64,000 nt of DNA from Bacteroidota bacterium (GTDB lineage: Bacteria; Bacteroidota; Bacteroidia; Bacteroidales; JACABE01): positions 1 to 64,000 of the forward strand of contig JAPLDQ010000034.1 of the NCBI GenBank assembly GCA_026391675.1, read 5' to 3'. The notes below the pieces were generated by a model. That model was not told the DNA's origin and did not search any database. It was given only the letters and a program-made list of their open reading frames with translations. This document shows, one piece after another, positions 1,646 to 27,739 of the stretch. A program made the translations under genes and the position numbers. Position 1 is the stretch's first letter. The number at the start of each line of letters is the position of its first letter.

Positions 1646-3016
1646 ATGAATCATATCAATCAATACATTAGTGAAAATAAAGAGCGGTTTCTGGAAGAAT
1701 TATTTGCATTAATCAGAATTCCATCTATCAGTTCCTTATCTGAAAATAAAGCTGATATGCTTAAAGCTGCAGAATACTGGAAATTAAGCTTACTGAATGC
1801 CGGAGCTGATAAAGCTGAAATAATAGCTACTGAAGGCAACCCTGTTGTATATGGTGAAAAAATTATTGATAAAAATCTGCCAACCGTATTGGTTTATGCA
1901 CATTACGATGTTATGCCAGTTGACCCTATTGAATTGTGGAATTCGCCACCATTTGATCCCCAGATAGTTGACGGAAAAATAGTTGCACGTGGCGCTGATG
2001 ATGATAAAGGACAATCTTTTATGCATGCCAAAGCATTTGAACTCATGGTTAAAACAAATACTTTGCCATGTAATGTAAAGTTTATGATAGAAGGTGAAGA
2101 AGAAATCGGATCTCCCAGTCTTCCTGCATTCTGCGAACAACATAAAGAAATGCTGAAAGCTGATATAATTCTTGTGTCGGATACAGGTATGATAGCACAG
2201 GATATTCCTTCAATTACCACAGGACTTAGAGGTTTAAGCTATATGGAAGTTGAAGTTACAGGTCCGAACAGGGATTTGCATTCCGGAATTTTTGGAGGTG
2301 CTGTTGCTAATCCTGCAAATATTCTGGCTAAAATGATAGCTTCATTACATGATGAAAACAATCATATCACTATCCCAGGGTTTTATGATGATGTGATGGA
2401 AATCAGCATGGAAGAAAGAAATGAAATGGCAAAGGCACCTTTTAATCTGGATAATTATAAAAAAGCGCTGGATATTAACAGCGAATGGGGAGAAAAAGGT
2501 TTTAGCACTACTGAAAGAACAGGAATAAGACCAACGCTGGATATCAATGGTATATGGAGTGGTTATACCGGTGAAGGTGCAAAAACAGTTCTTCCTTCAA
2601 AAGCAACTGCTAAAATTTCTATGCGTCTGGTTCCCAATCAGAACAATGAAAAAATAAGTGAGTTGTTTGAAAAACATTTTAAAGCTATTGCACCTGAATT
2701 TGTAAAAGTAAAAGTTACTGCTTTACATGGAGGACAAGCTTATGTTTCACCTATTACTATGCCGGCATATAAAGCAGCAGAAAAAGCTTATACTGAAACA
2801 TTCGGAAAAAAACCTGTACCTACCCGGAGTGGAGGAAGTATTCCTGTTATCGCTGATTTTGAAAAAATACTGGGAATTAAATCAATTTTGATGGGATTTG
2901 GATTAGAATCGGATGCAATCCATTCACCCAATGAGAATTATCCATTATTTAATTTCTATAAAGGCATAGAAACCATACCATATTTTTATAAATACTTTGT
3001 TGAACTTAATAAATAA
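1646..3016 (+). CDS. M20 family dipeptidase
   Basis: A 456-residue cytoplasmic zinc peptidase of the M20/M25/M40 family, closest in style to CNDP-like dipeptidases. No signal peptide is seen. The first metal-site motif is HYDVMP (H86, D88), the bridging aspartate lies in the ARGADDDKG segment (about D119), and the catalytic base with its metal ligand lies in EGEEEIGSP (E152/E153), followed by SDTG (D179). The bacterial-exopeptidase dimerisation domain follows, with the conserved GGSIP and HSPNE segments near the C-terminus. Full length for the family. It would hydrolyse dipeptides or short peptides; exact substrate unknown. It is divergent from the anchor-L gene and followed by an unrelated beta-barrel gene after about 70 bp. 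Confidence 0.92.
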   Translation: MNHINQYISENKERFLEELFALIRIPSISSLSENKADMLKAAEYWKLSLLNAGADKAEIIATEGNPVVYGEKIIDKNLPTVLVYAHYDVMPVDPIELWNSPPFDPQIVDGKIVARGADDDKGQSFMHAKAFELMVKTNTLPCNVKFMIEGEEEIGSPSLPAFCEQHKEMLKADIILVSDTGMIAQDIPSITTGLRGLSYMEVEVTGPNRDLHSGIFGGAVANPANILAKMIASLHDENNHITIPGFYDDVMEISMEERNEMAKAPFNLDNYKKALDINSEWGEKGFSTTERTGIRPTLDINGIWSGYTGEGAKTVLPSKATAKISMRLVPNQNNEKISELFEKHFKAIAPEFVKVKVTALHGGQAYVSPITMPAYKAAEKAYTETFGKKPVPTRSGGSIPVIADFEKILGIKSILMGFGLESDAIHSPNENYPLFNFYKGIETIPYFYKYFVELNK

Positions 3017-3085
3017 AGTTTATAATTTACAACTAATTTCAATTCAAATTGTTAATTAGTAAACATATTAAAATCTGATTTACAC

Positions 3086-3586
3086 ATGAAAAAAGTATTT
3101 TTAATTTTTGGATTTTTATTTTTAACATCCGGAATTTTTGCACAAGGGAACGTTAATAAAGGTCAAACTCAAATTAATGCCGGCATTGGCTTCTCAAATT
3201 GGGGGTTACCTATTTATGTAGGGTTTGACTATGGAGTTCATCCTGATATTTCATTAGGGGCTGAATTATCTTATCGCTCATTTAGCGAAGATTTTTATTC
3301 AATAAAATACTCCCATACCGTAATTGGTATTCTTGGAAATGCTAATTATCACTTCAACAGAATTTTAAATATTCCATCATCCTGGGATTTTTATGCCGGT
3401 TTAAATATTGGGTTTGTAAGTTATAGCAGTTCAAGTGGATATGGAGGATCCGGTAGTTCAGGCTTGGGTATAGGAGCTCAAATTGGCGGAAGATATTATT
3501 TTTCTAAAAAATTCGGTTTAAATATTGAATTTGGTGGCGGGAATAGATTTTCTCAAGGGAAATATGGAATAACTTATAAATTATAA
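3086..3586 (+). CDS. Small outer-membrane beta-barrel protein
   Basis: A 166-residue protein with a clear signal peptide (MKKVFLIFGFLFLTSGIFAQ, cleavage after FAQ). The mature part is made of alternating hydrophobic/polar strands rich in Gly, Tyr and Ser (for example VGFDYGVHPDISLGAELSY, GLGIGAQIGGRYYFS), the pattern of an OmpA/OprF-like or porin-like eight-stranded barrel. A Ser/Gly-rich loop lies near residues 112-130. No catalytic motif is visible. Probably an outer-membrane protein of unknown role. It converges on rsmI. Confidence 0.75.
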   Translation: MKKVFLIFGFLFLTSGIFAQGNVNKGQTQINAGIGFSNWGLPIYVGFDYGVHPDISLGAELSYRSFSEDFYSIKYSHTVIGILGNANYHFNRILNIPSSWDFYAGLNIGFVSYSSSSGYGGSGSSGLGIGAQIGGRYYFSKKFGLNIEFGGGNRFSQGKYGITYKL

Positions 3587-3614
3587 GGTTTTAAGATTTA
3601 TTTTTATTTATAAT

Positions 3615-25736: not shown

Positions 25737-26477
25737 TTAGCAGGACTTCCGGTCATCCAGTGCTGGTTTAAGTCCAAATTCTTTGGTTCTCATTTTATTG
25801 ATTAATTTCCCGTTTCTTAGTTCAAGATGGTCCATATAAGATGAAAACTCCCAATCTTCAACTTTATCAACAAATCCGGCTGCTTTGGGGTTTAAATGGA
25901 TATAATTAAAGCAAACTTGCGGATATTCCTTTTCTAAATCAGCTGTTTTCATATGCGCACCCTGAGATGTATTATAAAAAGAAGGAGTAATTCCCTTAGT
26001 TTTTGTAAGACATTCCGCTTTACAATATTTCCTGAATAAAGACCCACTGTTAAGTTTCTGCTTATTAACTGCTTGTGTATATGATCGCATTAAAAGACCT
26101 ATTGATTGATTAAAATCTCGTTTCCTGACAATGATGGTCTCTCTTGAAGAGAGGCTATCATTGTTAATATTAAAATTGGAATCAAAAGTGATAGCCTCAC
26201 TATAAGTGAGACTATCACTTATGGCAACCTCCAAAGTATGAACATAAACCATCAAATGAAAATGATTTGGCATCAAACACCATGCCAGAATATCTGCATG
26301 AGGTTGAATATATGTGCCAAGTTTCTTTAAAAAATAGAGATAATTTTCCCGTGAAAAGAAAATTTTTTGTTTATTATTTCCTTGATTATAAATGTGATAT
26401 ATTTGATGTTGTTCGAAAATCATAGGTTTTAAATTTGATATTTTGAGTGATAGCCTCTCTTGAAGAGAGACCATCAC
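25737..26477 (-). CDS. REP-associated tyrosine transposase (RAYT) with in-frame palindromes
   Basis: A Y1 (IS200-like) transposase of the RAYT class, 246 residues in the longest frame. HUH motif MPNHFHLMV (H72, H74), catalytic tyrosine Y133 in RSYTQAVNKQ, and the GSLFRKYCKAE segment are all present, so it may be active. The true start is probably M19 (ATG at 26423, MIFEQHQIYHIYNQGNN); the first 18 codons coincide with a REP-like palindrome. Two further palindromes of the same family lie inside the frame and encode SDSLTYSEAIT and NDSLSSRETII between the HUH and Tyr parts (about residues 87-116). It lies 5 bp after the stop of the FAD-protein gene. Confidence 0.85.
   Translation of the reverse strand: MMVSLQERLSLKISNLKPMIFEQHQIYHIYNQGNNKQKIFFSRENYLYFLKKLGTYIQPHADILAWCLMPNHFHLMVYVHTLEVAISDSLTYSEAITFDSNFNINNDSLSSRETIIVRKRDFNQSIGLLMRSYTQAVNKQKLNSGSLFRKYCKAECLTKTKGITPSFYNTSQGAHMKTADLEKEYPQVCFNYIHLNPKAAGFVDKVEDWEFSSYMDHLELRNGKLINKMRTKEFGLKPALDDRKSC
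26128..26164. repeat. REP-like palindrome 1, inside the RAYT gene
   Basis: Left arm ACAATGATGGTCTCTCTT, right arm complementary except for two positions that are both G-T wobbles on the plus strand. It is the same sequence family as palindromes 2 and 3, in inverted orientation relative to palindrome 3. Confidence 0.85.
26186..26220. repeat. REP-like palindrome 2, inside the RAYT gene
   Basis: Arms AAGTGATAGCCTCAC and GTGAGACTATCACTT pair with one mismatch around a 5-base TATAA loop. It shares AGTGATAGCCTC with palindrome 3. Confidence 0.85.
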
Positions 26478-26478
26478 T
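26446..26478. repeat. REP-like palindrome 3, at the 5' end of the RAYT frame
   Basis: AGTGATAGCCTCTCTT pairs with AAGAGAGACCATCACT allowing two wobbles. It lies between the FAD-protein stop and the likely real RAYT start, the usual position of a REP next to its RAYT. Confidence 0.85.
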
Positions 26479-26482
26479 TTTG

Positions 26483-27739
26483 TTAATCTTTCTTCAAAAT
26501 TTCTTCCGCCATCAGATAACCATGTGCGGTTGCATATATAATAGAACGTGTATATCCCGAACAGTCACCGATAAATTTTAAGTTCAGTAATTTTTCGTTG
26601 TCAAGCAAATTGGAATAAAATTTAATTTCAGGTGCATAAACCAAATTATCAGGATAGGCAATTCCCGGAATTACCTCATTCAGGGTTTCAATAAAATCAA
26701 TAATGCTTTCGATGATACGGCGCGGAAAAGCAAGATTTATATCACCCAGTATATATTGTGATTCGGGCATTGTTGGTTGTATACGATATAAATTTTTTGT
26801 CCTTTTGGAGTTTTTAAAATGATCGTAGGTCTGAAGTATAACTTTTCCTTTACCGGCAAGCAGATTGGAAAGCTTGGCTATGTGAGAACCATAACCGATC
26901 GGATTATTAAACGGCTCAGTTAGCTGTATGGTAACCAGAATGGCAAAATTGGTATTGCGGCTTTTATCTTTCATCTTGGCATGGCCATTAACTGTAACAA
27001 AGTCATCATAATTTTCAGTAACGACAAAACCTGATGGATTATTACAAAAACTGCGGACCATATAGCCTGTTTTGCTCTTATATTTTACCTTAAACTCATA
27101 CATTTCCTTATTTATCTCATCTACTATATGATTGGGGACTTCGTAACGTATGCCCAGATCCACTTTTGTATTATCCAGAATTAATTCGGGATGATTTTTA
27201 AGAATTGAACCTATCAGTTTATGACCGCTCCGTCCCACAGCAACAACCACTTTATCAAAAGCTTCATCGTACTCATTTACATAACATTTATCGTCTTTAA
27301 TATTGACTGACTGAATATTTTCTTCAAATCTGAAACTAATATTTTTAAAGTTTTTAAAGTTTTCGTAAATATTATACAAGACCATTTTCAGCTGATCAGT
27401 ACCCAGATGATAAAAATCAGATGAAACCGGTAAAAATCCTTTTTCATAGAATTTCTTAAAATAATTGCTGTTGGTAAACGACTGACCTGTTTCAACCTGT
27501 TTATCCTCGGTGTTATCAATATAAAAATCAACCAATTTCTTTTGCAGGGCCAGATCAATATGCATATCACCACCCATTTCGGAAGATACAAAAAGCTTGC
27601 CATCTGCTCTGATTCCTGAAATACTTGATGAATAAATATCCTTACTTTTTTCAAATACCACAATTTCATGCCCTTCTGTTTTCATTCTTTCGATAAAACC
27701 TATGGCTGCTGCGCCGAATCCTATGACTGCTATCTTCAT
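26483..27739 (-). CDS. FAD-dependent dehydrogenase-like protein (COG2509 type)
   Basis: A 418-residue Rossmann-fold flavoprotein. The dinucleotide motif is VIGFGAAAIG (residues 4-13) followed by an acidic residue at the end of strand 2 (VVFEKSK). The VVVAVGRSGH segment and the C-terminal FIGDCSGYTRSIIYATAHG segment are characteristic of the uncharacterised COG2509 FAD-dependent dehydrogenases. Function unknown. It lies 27 bp downstream of mtnA on the same strand. Confidence 0.8.
   Translation of the reverse strand: MKIAVIGFGAAAIGFIERMKTEGHEIVVFEKSKDIYSSSISGIRADGKLFVSSEMGGDMHIDLALQKKLVDFYIDNTEDKQVETGQSFTNSNYFKKFYEKGFLPVSSDFYHLGTDQLKMVLYNIYENFKNFKNISFRFEENIQSVNIKDDKCYVNEYDEAFDKVVVAVGRSGHKLIGSILKNHPELILDNTKVDLGIRYEVPNHIVDEINKEMYEFKVKYKSKTGYMVRSFCNNPSGFVVTENYDDFVTVNGHAKMKDKSRNTNFAILVTIQLTEPFNNPIGYGSHIAKLSNLLAGKGKVILQTYDHFKNSKRTKNLYRIQPTMPESQYILGDINLAFPRRIIESIIDFIETLNEVIPGIAYPDNLVYAPEIKFYSNLLDNEKLLNLKFIGDCSGYTRSIIYATAHGYLMAEEILKKD

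Follow-up and report, generated by a model that had tools for sequence, protein, structure and literature searches.

The window analyzed here is a stretch of 64,000 nucleotides from a Bacteroidota bacterium (assembly GCA_026391675.1, contig JAPLDQ010000034.1, positions 1 to 64,000). It carries a gene for a REP-associated tyrosine transposase (RAYT), accompanied by three palindromes, with the following layout:

26483-27739, open reading frame of the upstream gene (from the ORF list), its stop adjoining the leader REP side
26446-26478, no strand assigned, leader REP, between the upstream stop codon and the RAYT ATG, with the same asymmetry as REP A
25737-26423, minus strand, RAYT gene, 228 aa from the conserved ATG
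26256-26267, minus strand, HUH motif NHFH (residues 53-56, counted from the ATG), in which N53, H54 and H56 do not vary among 48 sequences
approx. 26115-26228, minus strand, variable insert from β3 to helix αC in the AlphaFold model, about residues 66-103
26187-26219, minus strand, internal REP A, in frame, encoding SDSLTYSEAIT (residues 69-79 from the ATG)
26130-26162, minus strand, internal REP B, in frame, encoding NDSLSSRETII (residues 88-98 from the ATG)
25887-25904, minus strand, Y motif YIHLNP, with Y174 invariant in 48 sequences and aligned with YIYINP of PDB 4er8

The reading frame is open over 25737-26477 (minus strand) from a GTG at 26477, a total of 246 aa, with the conserved methionine 18 codons further in. 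This methionine, at ATG 26423, is invariant in alignments of 11 and of 48 sequences, which places the third palindrome most likely in the 5′ leader, outside the RAYT frame, if this ATG is the start. The original prediction had this palindrome overlapping the 5′ end of the frame; that would hold only for a start at GTG 26477, and not from the invariant ATG.

The protein had been predicted to be a RAYT, and the database matches agree. NCBIfam model NF047646 (REP-associated tyrosine transposase) matches it below its cut-off (E 1.2e-11, 44.7 bits vs. a cut-off of 80), and E. coli TnpAREP (PDB 4er8) is its best match in the PDB, both by sequence (E 3.7e-4) and by fold. In a Foldseek search with the predicted structure 4er8 came top (E 9.7e-7, probability 1.00, TM 0.49/0.67), in keeping with a TnpAREP fold of the HUH/Y1 type, and it was the sole PDB match, at E up to 1, for a profile of 48 relatives. 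The two proteins are nevertheless far apart in sequence (13% identity in the structural match). NF047646 matches 48/48 members of the family at E up to 0.01, while PF01797 matches 27/48 and gives the window 17.3 bits vs. a cut-off of 23; the window ORF alone found no match among family models at 0.001. Both the HUH motif and the single-tyrosine motif with NP that characterize RAYT/TnpAREP proteins are present (NHFH and YIHLNP), and Y174 is probably the catalytic tyrosine. The insert appears in the AlphaFold model as a low-confidence loop closed by strands at residues 65-68 and 100-103, with a pLDDT of about 55-57 at residues 71-90 and 70 at residues 91-100, vs. a mean of 87.

The three palindromes belong to one family, each 33 nt long with two 15-nt arms and a 3-nt loop, and start with AGTGATAG or AATGATAG as judged by eye. 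Their proximity and relatedness, the placement of two of them in the RAYT frame after NHFH and before YIHLNP, and the two peptides that these encode were all correctly described in the original prediction. REP A pairs at 14/15 positions, the lone exception, at stem position 9, being T.G when read on the coding strand. REP B pairs at 13/15, with A.C and C.A mismatches on the coding strand and an asymmetry opposite to that of A. Two REPs that lie inverted and close together make up a REPIN. Going by the orientation of their letters, A and B form just such an inverted pair, resembling a REPIN set within a coding sequence. Searched with a 27-nt family pattern at a tolerance of 3 mismatches, the window yielded only these three palindromes (6 matches with both strands counted), and 100 dinucleotide-preserving shuffles of it yielded none.

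In the 4.04-Mb genome, the same pattern (at most 3 mismatches in 27 nt) occurs at 11 places, 3 in the window and 8 elsewhere, vs. 0 for a reversed control pattern. The genome search for other copies that had been proposed thus returned 8 of them, none overlapping an ORF of at least 80 aa, and the observation withstands the refuting condition attached to that search. The 8 copies are not all independent, since some have short common flanks and are located near the end of a contig or on one of 4.5 kb. The palindromes are therefore REP-like, as first suggested: a repeated palindrome of 20-40 bp, mostly extragenic and near a RAYT gene. Classical REPs, in the opening lines of an abstract, run to more than 100 copies, whereas this family is low in number. 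Of 59 genomes, 2 contained the 33-nt pattern: it occurs at 10 places in the window's own genome and, with 2-3 mismatches, at 3 places in another genome of the genus. On contigs C20, C22 and C39 of the window's genome (loci L009, L010, L011, L015 and L017), like letters flank the family copies, TTTCA or CCTCA before and CTTTCAG after; the palindrome there perhaps sits within a longer repeat.

We then compared the insert among homologues, taking the best 80 of 447 loci from named genomes, removing 4 with stop codons and adding the window, for a total of 77 genes, and counting an element where at least 13/15 positions paired. In this set, 61/77 genes carry an element in the insert loop, two units being present in 8 of the 61, window included; an element is likewise present in each of the 4 homologues removed because of stop codons. 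The original prediction had proposed looking for homologues that lack residues 87-116; what most of them have there, 61/77 with the window counted, is a palindromic unit in other letters. Nor do these homologues, or the subclass 2.4 described by Quentin et al. 2018 (PMC6006769; passages of the paper), bear out the view that in-frame REPs of its own would make a RAYT unusual. Among the 69 elements found in these 77 genes, 68 lie in the β3-αC insert and 1 elsewhere, and 63 of the 68 are in codon phase 0; with random use of the open phases, this phase would account for 36.5 of 61, vs. 56 seen. REP A shares its position and phase with the elements of most of these homologues. Synonymous codon permutation (200 rounds) left a mean of 0.47 and a maximum of 4 of the 77 genes with a palindrome, which rules out a coincidence of codon use.

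The remaining 16/77 genes lack an element at 13/15 pairs, some of them having weaker remnants of 11-12 pairs. Two element-less genes show repeated half-units: in L066 (match 771-1535) the insert consists of 3 left half-palindromes followed by 3 right halves, all in frame, and in L089 (match 1933-2613) a half-palindrome is repeated in tandem, in frame, in the insert. Presence and absence showed no phylogenetic clustering on the tree (14 changes vs. 14.7 in shuffles), which leaves gains and losses indistinguishable. In L065 (match 3001-3606), a palindrome occupies the same loop in another codon phase and encodes another peptide, which argues that not every internal copy stems from one insertion. 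For L050, an origin of the second unit by tandem duplication at the DNA level was unsupported (a local score of 14.0 was matched by 220/500 shuffles); its spacer KVRTINESVG stands alongside KNRTLNDSIG, a likeness that is suggestive by eye only.

The pairing of the elements is held while their letters change. With one phase-0 element taken per locus (56 elements), mean pairwise identity was 0.57 and yet 14.1/15 positions paired, compared to about 8/15 expected under neutral drift in a star-tree simulation at like identity. In 31 homologue pairs with at least 75% protein identity, changes had hit both sides of the stem at 129 positions and a single side at 18, the more similar pair of elements being taken where a locus had two; the homologue pairs overlap and cannot be treated as independent. 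In L058/L060, L088/L108 and L079/L080, the elements jump by at least 4 paired changes. The opposite is seen in L100/L111, where the element is 97% identical and third codon positions are 59% identical (0.97 vs. 0.59). The mismatch at stem position 9 is common to internal (36/63) and flanking (43/87) copies.

The internal elements also resemble the copies that flank their own gene. The best match to an internal element had a median of 29/33 in the gene's own flanks, vs. 20 in those of other loci, and matches of at least 28/33 were found for 38/61 own flanks vs. 208/4636 comparisons with other loci (41/68 elements when all those in the insert are counted). The second internal element of L050 is identical (33/33) to a copy just downstream of the L050 gene. 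The signal is incomplete, 11/61 elements being without an own-flank match of 24/33, and weaker against near relatives: 29/68 elements match their own flanks better than those of all five nearest relatives, and 18/61 better than those of all 76 other loci. The cleanest test is the comparison of sister genes within one genome. In 4 genomes that encode two or three RAYTs, all elements (11/11) had their best match in own flanks, by margins of 2-12 letters. The REP inside the G001 gene, however, has near matches, with 2-3 mismatches, at 3 places in the window's genome, which indicates that REP families are not strictly bound to a locus. Two further RAYT genes in the window's genome, L003 (contig C40) and L005 (contig C42), likewise have in-frame palindromes in this loop, but in another codon phase, together with flanking copies. 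These palindromes represent two other families, which occur at 3 and 6 places in the genome.

Taking the place, phase, repeat family, intact pairing and own-flank match as observed, we think it likely that the locus is a REPtron, in which a domesticated single-strand transposase (RAYT/TnpAREP) gene is accompanied by REPs of its own and contains a tolerant slot that is kept cognate by overwriting or by selection. In this reading, the disordered surface loop from β3 to αC would accept extra residues, and since a REP of 33 nt corresponds to eleven codons, its insertion would keep the frame. In the window, the slot would hold two inverted copies, with a third in the leader. RAYT action, or recombination among REPs, may insert copies in the slot and overwrite them, and copies that cannot be bound or that break the protein would be lost. 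The slot would in this way follow the REP currently in use by the locus. A more speculative extension, which we put forward tentatively, is that the loop is a dedicated REP slot, holding a built-in cognate tag that changes together with the specificity of the enzyme, provides a seed REP on transfer and possibly serves in self-regulation. The signature of such a tag would be a fixed place and phase, two-sided changes and a paralogue-specific match to own flanks.

An alternative that we regard as possible, if rather unlikely, is that the internal element is a functional site, at which the RAYT would attach to the gene or transcript that encodes it and so hold down its own expression or activity, with pairing and cognate letters under selection. 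Pairing that stays intact as letters change, the conservation of the L100/L111 element relative to third codon positions, and the retention by internal copies of the position-9 mismatch of the flanking family are all consistent with this; however, overwriting by neighboring copies would look alike, and the 16/77 genes without an element at 13/15 pairs speak against it, though some have weaker ones. Also against it, the asymmetric ones among 60 elements have no clear strand preference as a group (the template strand gives the better fold in 18 and the coding strand in 11, the other 31 being symmetric); a role as an mRNA hairpin is unsupported for the same reason. We consider it quite improbable that the element is a passive relic; in that case, a REP would have entered a tolerant loop long ago and been passed down since with no further role. 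The shared place and phase of 63/68 elements would fit a single ancestral insertion, the loop is predicted to be disordered, and the region is described in passages of Quentin et al. 2018 (PMC6006769) as peripheral and probably of little effect on activity. However, the pairing of a relic should have decayed to about 8/15 rather than the 14.1 seen, two-sided changes outweigh one-sided ones (129 vs. 18), and the letters track own flanks in 11/11 same-genome tests. Slightly less probable still is selection on the eleven residues as protein with the palindrome as a by-product of codons: T..S spacing at residues 5 and 7 is shared by 38/56 encoded peptides, but synonymous permutation keeps the peptide and abolishes the palindromes, flanking copies outside the frame have the same palindrome, and the region is of low confidence in the AlphaFold model.

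The arrangement observed here, REPs in frame within a RAYT gene, is of a kind known since 2018. In the passages of Quentin et al. (PMC6006769) that deal with TnpAREP subclass 2.4 (Bertels group 4), in-frame REPs, generally between HuH and Y, are its unique and predominant feature; REPs also flank the gene, the β3-αC insert is variable and Bacteroidetes are among the hosts. The window's RAYT has the defining trait, a β3-αC insert holding in-frame REPs, and its NHFH fits the NH[IFV]H motif in Table 1 of that paper. It differs in having GSLFR in place of WQ and YIHLNP in place of YIxNNP, and its REP, with the letters read by eye, shows neither the GT[AG]G foot nor the double foot of subclass 2.4 REPs. 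Its sequence thus suggests a RAYT that works like subclass 2.4 without being a strict member by motif letters and foot. For subclass 2.2, to which 4er8 belongs, the same table lists no β3-αC insert, whereas the window has one. Rickettsia palindromic elements and REPs in other genes (passages of Di Nocera et al. 2013, PMC3733652) similarly lie in frame and add a peptide; they occur in genes of no relation to them, repair genes for example, whereas the REPs described here lie in the gene of their own presumed transposase and always in one loop. What the present data add is the measured retention of pairing and the paralogue-specific flank match; the main-text passages of PMC6006769, PMC3733652, PMC8266576 and PMC2817692 contain no statement of such a match, which is said of those passages and not of the literature at large.

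RAYTs and REPs are thought to co-evolve, and their pairing is usually inferred from neighborhood. A REP inside the gene offers a physically linked partner for its RAYT, and sister RAYTs in one genome, as in Sunxiuqinia dokdonensis DH1 and in the window's genome, amount to natural specificity swaps. Should the slot prove functional, the coding sequence of a transposase would contain the substrate on which that transposase acts.

The window also contains a second, distant RAYT-like gene (L004, 56233-56607, plus strand, in a 217-aa open frame), flanked by repeats that have AATCTGCCAGATTT in common, with a partner arm at a distance of about 50 nt.
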